DNA from: Halorhabdus sp. BNX81 | GTDB lineage: Archaea > Halobacteriota > Halobacteria > Halobacteriales > Haloarculaceae | Assembly: GCF_029229925.1 (NCBI RefSeq) | Contig: NZ_CP107254.1 | Coordinates: 2,294,001 to 2,358,000, forward strand | Direction: 5' to 3' | DNA: 64,000 bases | Shown: piece by piece, positions 1,921-7,832 of the stretch | Numbering within the stretch: position 1 is the first letter of the stretch | Layout of the letters: each line of letters starts with the position of its first letter | Made by a program: the position numbers and the translations under genes | Notes under the pieces: generated by a model | Databases searched by the model: none | The model's input: the letters and a program-made list of their open reading frames with translations, nothing else | Told to the model about the DNA's origin: nothing

Positions 1921-2742
1921 ATGACTGTACCCAACGACTACGACGTCGAGGGCGAGGTGTGTGTGATCACCGGCGGGGCAGGCGTGCTGTGTTCGGAAAT
2001 GGCGATCGCGCTCGGTGAACAGGGCGCGACGGTCGTCGTACTCGACATCGATAGCGAGGGACTCGCCGAGGTCGCCGCGGCGCTTGAGGATGTCGACGCC
2101 GAGTACATGACACTGGAGGCGTCGGTGCTCGACCGGGCGGAACTGGACGCGGCGGCGGAGACGGTCGTCGACGAATACGGCCGGATCGACGTGCTCATCA
2201 ACGGCGCTGGCGGCAACAGCCCCGAGGCGACCACGGACGAGGAGACGGACTTCTTCGGGCTCGACGCCGCGGGCGTCGAGAACGTCTTCAATCTCAACTT
2301 CCTGGGGACGTTCCTGGCGTCCCAGGCCTTCGGCGAGTACATGGCCGAGCAGGGCGAGGGCCACATCCTCAACGTCTCCTCGATGAACGCCTTCACGCCG
2401 CTGACGAAGATCCCCGCCTATTCGGGGGCGAAAGCCGCCGTCTCGAACTTCACGGAGTGGCTGGCCGTCGACATGGCCCAGAATCACTCGCCAGACATCC
2501 GGGTCAATGCGATCGCGCCTGGCTTCCTGCTGACCGAGCAAAACCGCTATCTGTTGCTCGACGACGACGGCGATCTGACCGAGCGTGGCCAGCAGATCAT
2601 CGATCACACGCCCCAGGACCGCTTTGGCGACCCCGAGGACCTGCTCTCGACCGTGCTCTGGCTGATCGCCCCCGGCTCCGAGTTCGTCACCGGGGCCGTC
2701 ATCCCCATCGACGGCGGCTTTGCGGCGTTTAGTGGGGTTTAA
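1921..2742 (+). CDS. SDR oxidoreductase, D-mannonate oxidoreductase type
   Basis: This 273-residue short-chain dehydrogenase has the cofactor loop TGGAGVLC at residues 17-24, LINGAGG in place of NNAG, and the catalytic Tyr-x3-Lys pair at Tyr167/Lys171 (YSGAK). The segment SSMNAFTPLTKIPAYSGAK and the ending DGGFAAFSGV closely resemble the SDR-type D-mannonate oxidoreductase (YjmF/UxuB-like). That enzyme reversibly reduces D-fructuronate to D-mannonate in glucuronate breakdown. ATG 1921 gives the standard N-terminus; an in-frame ATG at 1885 would add 12 residues. The neighbours do not encode other uronate enzymes, so the substrate is inferred from family resemblance. Confidence 0.8.
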   Translation: MTVPNDYDVEGEVCVITGGAGVLCSEMAIALGEQGATVVVLDIDSEGLAEVAAALEDVDAEYMTLEASVLDRAELDAAAETVVDEYGRIDVLINGAGGNSPEATTDEETDFFGLDAAGVENVFNLNFLGTFLASQAFGEYMAEQGEGHILNVSSMNAFTPLTKIPAYSGAKAAVSNFTEWLAVDMAQNHSPDIRVNAIAPGFLLTEQNRYLLLDDDGDLTERGQQIIDHTPQDRFGDPEDLLSTVLWLIAPGSEFVTGAVIPIDGGFAAFSGV

Positions 2743-2814
2743 GGAGAGGGATTTGCGACGGGGCGAGATTTTGCAGTAGTGGTGAGATATGGATTTGGAT
2801 CGATTGAGACCACT

Positions 2815-2922
2815 CTGAAAGCCCTCCCCAGTTCCGGTCCCGCGACTCGTTGCGGTCCTCACTACGTTGCGGTCCTTACGTCGTCGAGGTTCCCGGAACT
2901 GACTCGCCCTTTCAGTCCACCA
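2815..2922 (+). repeat. Variable-arm palindromic element 1
   Basis: The element is bounded by CTGAAAG (2815-2821) and CTTTCAG (2909-2915), followed by TCCACCA. Inside them a 9-bp perfect inverted repeat (CAGTTCCGG 2829-2837, CCGGAACTG 2893-2901) encloses about 55 bases rich in CTACGTTGCGG-type sequence. The end sequences match those of the two elements at 7567-7832, but the arm sequence is unrelated. It fills the 283-base gap between the SDR and the restriction-methylase gene. It may be a non-autonomous mobile element or a structured transcript or terminator. Confidence 0.65.
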
Positions 2923-3025
2923 GGATTCGGCTGGATAGCCGTCAGAAAGGAGTTCTTTGACCGGCGCTTATCTGAACACCGCCGGACAGGCCTCCGTCAT
3001 CTATTTGTGGTTGCCAGCGGCCAGT

Positions 3026-6000
3026 ATGACCCATTCAATGAGTCAGGCGACCCTGTCCGACCGGCCGTACGTCAACTCGGCCCTGTTTTCGAGTCACTAT
3101 CTGGACGAGCGCGTGATCGAGCGCGAGGAGTGGGACTGCGACGAGGAAGCGCGGGAAGCGATGGAGCGCCTCCAGTCGCTCTACGATCTCGAGGGGGGCG
3201 TCGTCGACGGGTACGGCGAGGACGCCCTCGTCGACAACTGGATCGACGGGGTGCTCGACGTGCTCGGGTTCGGGACACAGAAGGAGGTTACCCTGCCGGA
3301 CGGTGACGGCTACGTCGACGAATTGCTGTTTGGCAGTTCGGCCGAGCGTCGCGAGGCCGCGAAGGTGAACCTCGACACGGACGACACGACGGACCTCTTT
3401 ACGCGCGGGGTCGGACTGGTCGAAGCCAAGCAGTGGGATGCCGACTTCACCGCGGAGTTCAGCGAGCGCCGGCCCTACCGCAACGCCTCCCACCAGATCA
3501 AACACTATCTGGAGAAGACGCCAGCGAACATCCAGTGGGGCGTGCTGACGAACGGCCGGAAGTGGCGGCTCTACGGGACCAAGGACTACGAGACCCAAAC
3601 CTACTTCGAGATCGACCTCCCCGAGATTCTTGAATCAGGTGATCTGGAGGCGTTCAAGTATTTCTACGTCTTCTTCCGGCCGGACGCCTTCCGGAAAACT
3701 GCCGGGACGACGTTTCTCGACGAAGTGCGCTCGGAGAGTGAGACTGCCTCCCAGGAACTCGGCGAGGACCTGCAGGACAACGTCTTCACGGCGTTGCGGG
3801 TGCTCGGGCGTGGGTTCGTCGAATCGAACGACATGGACATCGATCCCGACGACGAGGCGGCGCTTGCCGAACTCAAAGAGCAGTCGCTCGTGTTGCTCTA
3901 CCGGTTGATGTTCGTCCTCTACGCCGAGGCGCGCGAGCTAATCCACCCCGAGGAGCCGTCGACCCAGGACGAATACGAGGAGAACTTCAGTCTGGACGCG
4001 CTGCGCATGGAGATTCACGACGAGATCGGCGAGGTCGACGAGGGCTTCGAGTCGGCGTTCAGCGAGCACTCGACGACGATGTGGACTCGACTGGAGGACC
4101 TGTTCTCGCTGATCGACGAGGGCGAAGAGGACCTCGGGATTCCGGCGTACAACGGCGGGTTGTTCGATCACGACCAGCACGCGTTCCTGACGGACCACGA
4201 GGTGAGCAACCGGTATCTCGCGGAGGTGATCTACCGGCTGTCGACGACGGAGAACGACGACGGGCGGTACGTGCTGGCGGACTACGCCGACCTGGACACG
4301 CGCCACCTCGGCAGCGTCTACGAGGGCCTGCTGGAGCATCACTTCCGCATCGCGCCGGAGCAGTACGCCGCTGTCTCGGCGGACGGCGGGCAGGTCTGGA
4401 AGCCGGCCGGCGAGGTGACAGTCGCCGACGCGGTGGAGACGGTCCCCGAAGGTGGGCTGTACGTCGTCAACGACGAGGGCGAGCGTAAGGCGACGGGGGC
4501 GTACTACACGCCCGACTACGTGGTGACGTACATCGTCGAGGAGACGATCGGTCCCCTCGTGGCGGAGATTCACGAGGATCTGCAATCCCAGGGGTTCGAG
4601 CGCGGGACCCAGGAGTACATCGGGCCGTTCATCCGGCGGGTGACGGATCTGCAGATCCTCGATCCGGCGATGGGGAGCGGGCACTTTCTGACGCGGGCGA
4701 CGGAGTACCTCGCCAACGAGGTGATGGTGGAGGTCCGGGAGGTCGAATCGGCGATGGGCGTCGCCATCGACGAACAGCAGATGCGCCGGGACATCGCCAA
4801 GGAGTGCATCTACGGCGTGGACATCAACGGCATGGCCGTCGAACTCGCGAAGCTGTCGATGTGGCTGGAGACGCTGGCGACCGACCAGCCCCTGGCCTTT
4901 CTCGATCACCACCTCAAGGCCGGGAACTCCCTGGTGGGGTCGGACGTGACGGACGTGCTCAGCGAGGACGACGAGGAGGACGATAGCGGGCAGTTGACGC
5001 TGACGCAGGCCTTCGGTCGCGTGCGTCGGGACACCCTGGATCACGTGATGGACCTGATGGCGGACCTGCTGGCGATGGACAACGAGACCTTAGAGGACGT
5101 CCACTCGATGGAGGACCTCTACGAGCAGATCCAGGACGACCCACTCTACCGCCGGTTGTTCGAGTTGACGAACGTCCACACCGCCGAGCAGTTCGGGGTG
5201 GACGTGCCCGAGGACGCCTACGAGCAGATGGCCGACGCCATCGAGGACGAGGCGGAGTGGGACGAGATTCAAGGGGAAGACTGGTTCGAGGACGCCCAGG
5301 CGCTGGCCGACGAGCAGACCTTTTTCCACTGGGAACTCGAGTACCCCGGCGTGTTCTTCGACGAAGACGGGGAAGAGCGTGCGGACGCCGGGTTTGATGC
5401 GGTAATTGGGAATCCGCCATACATTAGGATCCATCGTGTTGGACACGATCTTACTGACTATCTATTTGACAGTTATGGCACTTGTTCAAATAAATCAGAC
5501 CTCTCAATCCCATTCTTGGAAAGAGGATTTAAATTAATCTCACAGAGAGGATTCACCGGCTATATTTCTACTTCACAGTGGGTTTCAACTGATTACGGAG
5601 AGAGCGTTCGATCCTTTATGTCCAACGGGAAAGTTGCTAAAGTCCTCGACTTTGGAACGTTACCTGTTTTCAAAGGGATCTCGACCTACCCTGCGATATT
5701 CATCTTGTCTGGTTCAGCATCAGAGAACATGGAGTATGCAAAAGTAGAGAATGAATCACAGTTGACTACCGACGCAATTGATCGCTTACAGTTTCGGAAA
5801 CTATCATATGAGAGATTTGATCGTGAGCCCTGGGTGTTTGATGGTCTTGACCTCCGAGCAACGATTTCAGAGAGATCGAAAACTGCTCCTCTCTCCTCTC
5901 TTGGAGAGTTCAAAATTGGCGCATTAACTGGGATGGACGACGTTTTCGTGGTTGATCAGGACACCATTGATGAGCATGATCTTGAAGAGGACTTGATTTT

Positions 6001-7324
6001 CCCATATGCATATCAAGGAGAAGAAATACAGCGATATGCGACTGTCGAACCTGATGAATTTGTTATTTATCCCTATTCCGAAGGCGACGATGGAGACAGT
6101 AAACTTCTCCCAGAACAGGTTTTAGAATCCGAATATCCAAATATCCACTCATACTTTGAGCGTCATAAACAAGATCTTCGAGAAAGGCAGGACTCTAGAA
6201 AGTTCTACGCAAAAGGTCCAGATTGGTATCGGTTCTTGCGACAGGGTCGTTTTGACTACATCACCCCGCCTAAGCTACTGATTAAAGGAGTCGCCACACA
6301 CTCTTGTGTTGGATTTCTTCCTGACGACACTCTTTTCAGCGGGGCAAACTGCCCCGGCCTTATATTAAACTCAGAGAATATATCTCAGGATATACTACTC
6401 GGCATATTGAATTCGAATCTTATCTCCGAGTATTTGGTTCAAGTATGTCCTGCAAAGATGCAGAACTATACTCGATTTAATGCGAATAACTTGAACGATA
6501 TTCCGATTGTTGTCCCAGAACAGGATGTTGCACTAGATATGAGTTCACATCTCTCAGAACAATCTCAGAAAACTCTTAAGGATCTTATCGGCTCCATGGA
6601 GACTTCGTTCTATGTTTCGATTGAGAGAGGGTCTGAGGAACTGCGTTCATTGAGAGATCAACTGATTTCGCTTAATCTCTCCCTCCTCGACCACCTCGGC
6701 TCCTACTCGGATGGCCCGACCCTCGCGGACGTGGGCCTCACCCAGCCGCCGGAGGGCGCGGCCGACTCGATCCTCACCCAGACCACCGAGGAGCGCCCGA
6801 ACCTCCGCGTCGGCGAGGCCACGGTCGTCCGGGAGTCGCCCACGGCGGTCGAGATCCGCCTCACAGCGCGGTACAAGCCGGACGATAGCGAGACGCGACC
6901 GGCGGGAGCGTCTCGTTCAGATCGAACGGGCGAAGCCCGTGAGATAGCTCATGAGACCGACCAGTGGGGCTACACCGAGACCGAGCCGTTGCCGGCGTTG
7001 CGGATTTCGGACCTCACCGCAGCGGAGGCGGACCTGCTCGAGCACTTCGTGCCCGTTGCCGTCGACGAGGCCGGTGGGTTCGCGGACTTCCGCGAGACCG
7101 CCACGAAGACCAACTCGCCCGTCGATCGCCTGCGAAAGCTGACGCTGCCCGCCGTCGATGACGTGCAGGCGGGGCTAGAGAGCTACGTCGAGACGAAGGA
7201 ACGCGCCGACGAACTGGAGGCGAAGCTCGAGCGCACCGACGACCTGATCGATGAAATTGTGTATGAGTTGTACGGGTTGACCGACGAGGAAATCAGGATC
7301 GTCGAAGAAGCGGTTGGGGAGTAG
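3026..7324 (+). CDS. Type IIG/BREX-like restriction-modification enzyme (fused nuclease-methyltransferase)
   Basis: This protein of about 1,430 residues has an N-terminal PD-(D/E)xK nuclease-like region (…GLVEAKQWDAD, about residue 130). A helical region, an N6-adenine methyltransferase domain (ATGAYYTPDYVV; motif I DPAMGSGHFL; motif IV NPPY near residue 800), and a C-terminal specificity region follow, then a coiled coil ending EEIRIVEEAVGE. This order fits Eco57I-like type IIG enzymes; PglX is an alternative. Bases about 5,400-6,680 are far more AT-rich than the flanks (37% against 70% GC in 60-base hand counts), starting at the NPPY motif. ATG 3026 lies about 22 bases after a TATA-like CTATTT, which fits a leaderless start; ATG 3038 is an alternative. 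Confidence 0.85.
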   Translation: MTHSMSQATLSDRPYVNSALFSSHYLDERVIEREEWDCDEEAREAMERLQSLYDLEGGVVDGYGEDALVDNWIDGVLDVLGFGTQKEVTLPDGDGYVDELLFGSSAERREAAKVNLDTDDTTDLFTRGVGLVEAKQWDADFTAEFSERRPYRNASHQIKHYLEKTPANIQWGVLTNGRKWRLYGTKDYETQTYFEIDLPEILESGDLEAFKYFYVFFRPDAFRKTAGTTFLDEVRSESETASQELGEDLQDNVFTALRVLGRGFVESNDMDIDPDDEAALAELKEQSLVLLYRLMFVLYAEARELIHPEEPSTQDEYEENFSLDALRMEIHDEIGEVDEGFESAFSEHSTTMWTRLEDLFSLIDEGEEDLGIPAYNGGLFDHDQHAFLTDHEVSNRYLAEVIYRLSTTENDDGRYVLADYADLDTRHLGSVYEGLLEHHFRIAPEQYAAVSADGGQVWKPAGEVTVADAVETVPEGGLYVVNDEGERKATGAYYTPDYVVTYIVEETIGPLVAEIHEDLQSQGFERGTQEYIGPFIRRVTDLQILDPAMGSGHFLTRATEYLANEVMVEVREVESAMGVAIDEQQMRRDIAKECIYGVDINGMAVELAKLSMWLETLATDQPLAFLDHHLKAGNSLVGSDVTDVLSEDDEEDDSGQLTLTQAFGRVRRDTLDHVMDLMADLLAMDNETLEDVHSMEDLYEQIQDDPLYRRLFELTNVHTAEQFGVDVPEDAYEQMADAIEDEAEWDEIQGEDWFEDAQALADEQTFFHWELEYPGVFFDEDGEERADAGFDAVIGNPPYIRIHRVGHDLTDYLFDSYGTCSNKSDLSIPFLERGFKLISQRGFTGYISTSQWVSTDYGESVRSFMSNGKVAKVLDFGTLPVFKGISTYPAIFILSGSASENMEYAKVENESQLTTDAIDRLQFRKLSYERFDREPWVFDGLDLRATISERSKTAPLSSLGEFKIGALTGMDDVFVVDQDTIDEHDLEEDLIFPYAYQGEEIQRYATVEPDEFVIYPYSEGDDGDSKLLPEQVLESEYPNIHSYFERHKQDLRERQDSRKFYAKGPDWYRFLRQGRFDYITPPKLLIKGVATHSCVGFLPDDTLFSGANCPGLILNSENISQDILLGILNSNLISEYLVQVCPAKMQNYTRFNANNLNDIPIVVPEQDVALDMSSHLSEQSQKTLKDLIGSMETSFYVSIERGSEELRSLRDQLISLNLSLLDHLGSYSDGPTLADVGLTQPPEGAADSILTQTTEERPNLRVGEATVVRESPTAVEIRLTARYKPDDSETRPAGASRSDRTGEAREIAHETDQWGYTETEPLPALRISDLTAAEADLLEHFVPVAVDEAGGFADFRETATKTNSPVDRLRKLTLPAVDDVQAGLESYVETKERADELEAKLERTDDLIDEIVYELYGLTDEEIRIVEEAVGE
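6888..6958 (+). repeat. Hairpin-rich in-frame insert inside the restriction-methylase gene
   Basis: Within the 3' part of the gene are consecutive inverted repeats: GAGACGC/GCGTCTC, ACGGGCGAAGCCCGT, and smaller ones. They encode the low-complexity string GASRSDRTGEAREIAHE between two well-behaved protein segments. The sequence style (GGGCGAAGCCC with a short loop) matches the intergenic hairpins near the tRNA genes, not the surrounding coding sequence. The reading frame stays open. Confidence 0.5.
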
Positions 7325-7404
7325 CATCAGCAGAGCGGAGTGAGGCTATTGCCGCCGAAAATATGACGTAAGTGCCATTAGAACCCACTACGTCGAATCT
7401 TCCA

Positions 7405-7530
7405 ATGTGTGAGACAGCCAGCGAGAAAGGGGATGAGATGGTTCAGGAGACTATCAACCAGGCTGTCGAAGACGTGAAAGCGCTCGACTTTGCGACGTTC
7501 GCAGAGGTCACAGAAGCGTTCCGCCGGTAG
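7405..7530 (+). CDS. Possible 41-residue protein or gene remnant
   Basis: ATG 7405 opens a 41-codon frame, MCETASEKGDEMVQ…ATFAEVTEAFRR. It is acidic, predicted helical and haloarchaeal in composition. It sits 80 bases after the restriction-methylase gene. It could be a small protein or the N-terminal stub of a longer gene cut off by the palindromic elements that follow. I recognise no domain. Confidence 0.35.
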   Translation: MCETASEKGDEMVQETINQAVEDVKALDFATFAEVTEAFRR

Positions 7531-7566
7531 AACCCAGTCCAAGTGAGAGCCAGGCCAGAGGATGCA

Positions 7567-7689
7567 AACAGCGTGAAAGCCCCGAGTCGTTCGAGTCGGG
7601 AGACTCGCTGCGCGCTTCCCTCACTACGTTCGGTCCAGTGCTTGCTTCGCCTGCCTTCCCCGAACGACTCGCCCCTTTCATTCCCACCC
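7567..7689 (+). repeat. Variable-arm palindromic element 2
   Basis: The left end is AACAGCGTGAAAGCCCC (7567-7583) and the right end CCCCTTTCATTCCCACCC (7672-7689). The internal arms GAGTCGTTCG (7584-7593) and CGAACGACTC (7661-7670) pair perfectly over 10 bp. The ends match elements 1 and 3 and the arms do not. It faces element 3 head to head across a 26-base spacer. Together with element 3 it accounts for most of the 7,531-7,922 non-coding stretch. Confidence 0.7.
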
Positions 7690-7715
7690 ATGTCAGCTGG
7701 TTAATCGGCCGACAC

Positions 7716-7832
7716 GGGTGGGAATGAAAGGGGCCGGCCGTCTGCGGGAACCCGGGCGAGACAAGCACCGCAGCAACGCGAGGAGCGCAGCGAGCCCCGG
7801 GACCGCAGACGGCCGGGGGCTTTCACGCTGTT
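7716..7832 (-). repeat. Variable-arm palindromic element 3
   Basis: This copy is inverted relative to element 2. Its end GGGTGGGAATGAAAGGGG (7716-7733) is the exact reverse complement of the right end of element 2 (18 bp). Its other end GGGGCTTTCACGCTGTT (7816-7832) is the exact reverse complement of the left end (17 bp). Its own internal arms CCGGCCGTCTGCGG (7734-7747) and CCGCAGACGGCCGG (7803-7816) pair over 14 bp and differ from those of elements 1 and 2. Confidence 0.7.

Follow-up and report, generated by a model that had tools for sequence, protein, structure and literature searches.

Hairpin repeats flanking a restriction-modification gene of Halorhabdus sp. BNX81 apparently belong to a large mobile repeat family of salt-loving archaea

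The window analysed here, a 64-kb stretch of the Halorhabdus sp. BNX81 genome, carries a gene for an Eco57I-family restriction-modification (R-M) protein, with one hairpin repeat (E1) upstream of it and two (E2 and E3) downstream (Table 1). The start of the gene was chosen as the ATG at 3026; a longer open reading frame with a TTG start begins at 2957, within the IS6-type MITE that surrounds E1. The sequence-only reading had placed three palindromes at these sites, which was borne out: their extents are now set, and a covariance model (R1) searched over the 64 kb found exactly E1-E3 (E values, best first, of 5e-30, 2.8e-24, and 4.5e-22). Because E1-E3 were among the training sequences of R1, the independent evidence consists of copies found elsewhere. 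The arm lengths of 9 and 14 bp given in that reading were right, whereas the length of 10 bp given for E2 was wrong and is corrected to 11 bp. It had lacked the placement of E3 on the minus strand, through which E2 and E3 converge as an inverted pair, and the position of E1 as the body of an IS6-type MITE. Folding of each strand of E1-E3 as single-stranded DNA beat every, or almost every, shuffle in five of six cases (z -2.4 to -5.0); the minus strand of E2 was unremarkable (z -1.3, with 22 of 200 shuffles equally good).

Table 1. Features of the R-M locus and its flanking repeats (positions in the window).
Feature	Position	Strand	Details
IS6-type MITE around E1, 209 bp	2775-2983	+	alignment with 12 sibling copies
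E1 hairpin	2816-2914	+	foot TGAAAGCCC/CCCTTTCA; covariance model match 79.3 bits
E1 arms CAGTTCCGG/CCGGAACTG	2829-2837 and 2893-2901		9 bp, perfectly paired
E1 right-hand conserved tag GTCCACCAGGAT	2915-2926	+	class KTCCRCCAGG
Eco57I-family R-M protein gene	3026-7324	+	Pfam Eco57I (E 2.8e-34), TaqI_C, N6_Mtase
Outer flank motif ACAGCG of the E2/E3 pair, here CAAACAGCG	7567-7573	+	consensus nnAACAGCR before left foot
E2 hairpin	7574-7680	+	covariance model match 105.1 bits
E2 arms CGAGTCGTTCG/CGAACGACTCG	7583-7593 and 7661-7671		11 bp, perfectly paired
Palindrome of the E2/E3 inner flanks, arms	7664-7702 and 7703-7741		
E2/E3 pair centre, 44 bp	7681-7724	n/a	TTCCCACCC..GGGTGGGAA palindrome from two right-hand tags
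E3 hairpin	7725-7825	- (opposite to E2)	covariance model match 86.4 bits
E3 arms CCGGCCGTCTGCGG/CCGCAGACGGCCGG	7734-7747 and 7803-7816		14 bp, perfectly paired
Outer flank motif, E3 side, CGCTGTT	7826-7832	-	reverse complement AACAGCG

The end pattern TGAAAG..CTTTCA at the right spacing gave 18 matches per strand in the whole genome, against four for a reversed-pattern control, and is also present in many relatives. A total of 208 copies of the hairpin family were collected. The covariance model R1, which was built from 46 diverse copies, found 34 matches in the 2.83-Mb genome of Halorhabdus sp. BNX81 itself and, among 59 related haloarchaeal genomes, detected the family in 42, the richest of which has at least 64 copies. 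In a phylum-wide sample, all matches of the model fell inside one order, the same as that of the source genome. Halosimplex, Haloarcula, Haloglomus, Natrinema, and Natronorubrum are among the named hosts, and similar sequence is present on 39 haloarchaeal plasmid records. E1-E3 are thus members of a large, apparently undescribed family of mobile hairpin repeats restricted to salt-loving archaea; no account of it turned up in the literature searched (most subscription papers lay outside the search). A virus origin gained no support, as the end pattern was absent from viral contigs and did not occur in phage records. The left flanks have a period-3 composition, but the idea that they are coding was likewise unsupported, since stop codons are about as common there as in other frames.

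The units are 99-107 bp long in the window and about 100-110 bp in the family, and consist of a conserved foot (TGAAAGCCC..CCCTTTCA), paired arms of nearly free sequence, a moderately conserved core, and, to the right of the foot, the tag KTCC(C)RCC. Two end classes were recognized, TGAAAGCCCC..GCCCCTTTCA-KTCCCRCCC and TGAAAGCCCT..CGCCCTTTCA-KTCCRCCAGG, and a second core type (ACATATCC..GGATAG) is combined with the same ends. Over the 208 copies, the consensus nnAACAGCR lies upstream of the left foot. About 48 of the 51 copies that lack a partner keep the right-hand tag, which is therefore not accounted for by pairing between partners. A CCC/CCC internal loop sits between foot and arm and is never closed; this also holds for copies in the source genome that were found without requiring the loop. 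Conserved ends with a variable yet pairing middle are likewise a feature of integron attC sites, a resemblance only. Shortened or truncated copies exist (L040, L265). Nested palindromes were observed in the loops of five copies (L262, L331, L332, L334, L335), e.g., GGAGGTCGGCGTCGCCGACCTCC, and another palindromic segment, CCAGAAAACTTCGTATTCTGGTCGCCCGAAAATCTTCGATTTTCGCAGG, recurs to the right of L048 and L065 and lies inside L262 as well. Upstream of several copies (L086, L087, L170, L179, L215, and others), the left end and left arm are tandemly duplicated in units of about 32-64 bp.

In a set of 87 non-redundant copies, in-register pairing over a run of 12 arm positions reaches 75-92% (expected, 35-63%), and further inward the covariation persists in weaker form. 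In the 46-copy alignment, double changes occur at all ten modelled arm pairs, and 131 double-changed cells were counted, versus 40.2 ± 4.7 in shuffles (none of 500 reached 131) and only 20-30 after sliding the partner arm; the shuffles disregard the relatedness of the copies, whereas the slid-partner control retains it. The arms therefore covary strongly, and the proposal made from the three window copies, that pairing is kept while the bases change, holds over dozens of non-redundant copies. The accompanying statement that the arms are unrelated between copies needs to be softened, as they are not wholly private and related arms turn up in other copies.

Signs of both selection for structure and palindrome-making copying are present in the data. 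According to the latter explanation, there is little selection on the hairpin itself, and templated copying, by template switching or repair in an extruded hairpin, rewrites one arm from the other and so turns a mutation in one arm into a matched pair. It is favoured by the arms diverging faster than the core (mean identity 0.50-0.56 vs. 0.72-0.73) and by 21 independent copy pairs with near-identical cores, in which the cores diverge by 3.4% and 38 double and 22 one-sided arm changes were counted; 17 of the double changes are transversion-type. Isolated transversion-type double changes are also present in close relatives, which hints at templating. Arm changes follow two regimes, either a few point changes or six to nine double changes with almost no core change; the second may reflect conversion of the core between copies, in which case the block changes would not speak for copying of the arms. 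The CCC/CCC loop stays open although it is paired on both sides, which argues that a structure is being kept, and some inner mismatches look kept as well (T.T in GGTCC/GGTCC, by inspection). Furthermore, isolated mispairs are biased on the plus strand (29 A.C vs. 6 G.T), a bias that copying does not predict and that suggests either that the complementary strand folds as a single strand or that mutation is strand-biased. Palindrome rewriting with little selection is considered an unlikely explanation, and we hold equally doubtful a variant in which hairpin-specific copying renews the arms in matched pairs or blocks without altering foot, tag, and core, every copy acquires a stem of its own in this way, and R-M genes are exchanged across the repeats as borders. 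The family is abundant and its signature unusual, since the arms outpace the core in divergence and remain complementary; it offers natural material for investigating selection and templated DNA copying as alternative sources of compensatory stem changes.

The strand bias of the mispairs is as in RNA, and the copies are largely intergenic (117 of 136), both of which would suit a structured RNA or transcription terminator whose hairpins act in transcripts, for instance at the 3' ends of genes. However, terminators or attenuators are disfavoured by a gene context close to that of the background: convergent, divergent, and codirectional sites number 24, 28, and 57, against 46, 61, and 151 in the background of a home-made gene caller, convergent sites (24 of 109, vs. 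46 of 258 background gaps) are without clear excess, and the orientation at codirectional sites (24 to 33) is without clear bias. In addition, opposite hairpins adjoin each other in pairs, the G.T cells are few for an RNA stem, and no Rfam match reached the gathering score. The role at transcription ends raised by the sequence-only reading is weakened by these results, and a function in transcripts appears very unlikely. Matches to Rfam microRNA hairpins were discarded, because they fell short of the gathering scores and appear to reflect hairpins in general.

E1 and its siblings share boundaries far outside the hairpin, which delimit an element of about 210 bp with 17-bp inverted ends similar in sequence to GGYRGTGTTCAGATAAG. 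The left terminal repeat at E1 is degenerate (AGTAGTGGTGAGATA), and the right one (CTTATCTGAACACCGCC) is intact. In a sister species (G005), a 697-bp element with the same ends encodes an IS6-family transposase, and it is by this element that the terminal repeats around E1 are recognized as IS6-type; the E1 MITE itself, at 209 bp, is too short for a transposase. Perfect 8-bp target duplications were found in several sibling copies and variants, and none is visible at E1. Paired copies occur in IS6-type MITEs as well, such as the one at 2518072-2518302 of the source genome, where ATTCTTTC was read from the alignment on either side. The flanks of E2/E3 showed no IS6-type terminal repeats, and scanning 25 bare pairs at many offsets gave no convincing target duplication; therefore, we only infer that E2/E3 were mobile by the IS6 route. 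About 16 perfect IS6-type end motifs remain in the source genome, in which no match to an IS6 transposase gene was detected. In one 130-bp MITE (L265), the hairpin is reduced to TGAAAGCCCTCGCCCTTTCA, by either a deletion between CTCGCC repeats or descent from a site that never had a hairpin.

The layout of E2/E3, a convergent pair 44 bp apart whose inner flanks make up a further palindrome, is found in many genomes, and other pairs have the same spacing and a covarying first central pair. In the 25 bare pairs, nnAACAGCR forms an outer inverted repeat. Since the outermost and central base pairs of pairs also covary, a pair could, as far as its sequence indicates, form a four-way junction with its C runs paired. 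One intergenic site in the genus, which adjoins a gene that we take from its sequence to encode V-ATPase subunit D, holds a pair in three species and lacks it in four; the carriers differ from one another by an inversion of the pair and in one hairpin. In another sister species (G004), an E2-type arm lies at the E3 end of the window's own site, an apparent inversion, and in L099 and L227 the interior is inverted inside fixed ends. These inversions and hairpin swaps were presumably produced by recombination.

Alignment of the R-M locus to G004 revealed homology that runs up to 2983, the last base of the MITE, and resumes at 7816, within the outer end of E3. In G004 the two repeats enclose, between these edges, the gene for a different Eco57I-family R-M protein, with 23% identity over 431 residues. 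The repeats, which flank the R-M gene on both sides as had been claimed, thus coincide with the edges of the R-M difference, and may, judging from this one comparison, have caused it. That the repeat ends coincide with the break-points of this difference suggests a possible route for the exchange of defence genes among haloarchaea.

Most simply, the family can be read as a REP/BIME-like mosaic mobile repeat of haloarchaea; probably the hairpin is constrained at the DNA level and the repeat has spread, at least in part, by IS6-type MITEs. IS6 transposases acting in trans would move IS6-type MITEs that have the units as their body, either one unit, as at E1, or two in a convergent pair. Once inserted, such elements would lose their IS6 ends by decay, so that bare pairs like E2/E3 remain; copies would then recombine, inverting pairs, swapping hairpins, and possibly exchanging neighbours such as the R-M gene. 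Complementarity of the arms would persist because of a need for the hairpin, most likely in single-stranded or cruciform DNA, because of arm-templated repair, or both. A purely structural role does not explain why the core is also conserved.

Bacterial REP/BIME/REPIN elements are similar in being intergenic multi-copy palindromes with a conserved tag, inverted pairs, and a mosaic, recombining organization (PMC3116915, PMC3733652). In contrast to them, the haloarchaeal family has longer units, far more variable arms, and no GTAG/CGTC tag, and its copy number is not tied to a Y1 (RAYT) transposase. REP-like movement in which a Y1 (RAYT/IS200-type) transposase works on hairpins of single-stranded DNA would agree with the one-sided conserved tag beside the hairpin, the inverted pairs, the bare pairs without target duplications, and the strand-biased mispairs. 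However, the source genome has no Y1 transposase, copy number did not follow the Y1 count over the 59 relatives (Spearman -0.12, p 0.38), and several genomes with 44 to at least 64 copies carry no Y1. Y1-driven movement is weakened by these counts and seems highly improbable, though a different HUH enzyme could be involved. For the mosaic mobile repeat, the likeness to IS6-family MITEs lies in the IS6-type inverted ends of E1 and some pairs, the 8-bp target duplications of siblings, and a transposase acting in trans, whereas the body is not a deleted IS6 element and the repeats are present on plasmids and in bare pairs as well.

The nearest description located in the literature is that of the small mobile repeats SMR-A and the "SwitchRepeats" of Haloquadratum walsbyi (PMC3119063). 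SMR-A elements are likewise haloarchaeal, about 110 bp long, and multi-copy, with inverted ends and, as in the bare pairs, no target duplication (PMC3119063). Their reported targets are palindromes of IS605-type elements and of PATEs (PMC3119063); nothing of the kind was noticed at the loci inspected here. The comparison with SMR-A, to which HqIRS42, HqIRS43, and HqIRS55 belong, was made at the level of these described traits.

On seven haloarchaeal plasmids (L310, L311, L312, L313, L315, L316, and L319; ~2450-3130), the hairpin adjoins a conserved non-coding region of about 500 bp. This region, one copy of which was tested and had no Rfam match, precedes a gene encoding an RPA-like OB-fold protein.
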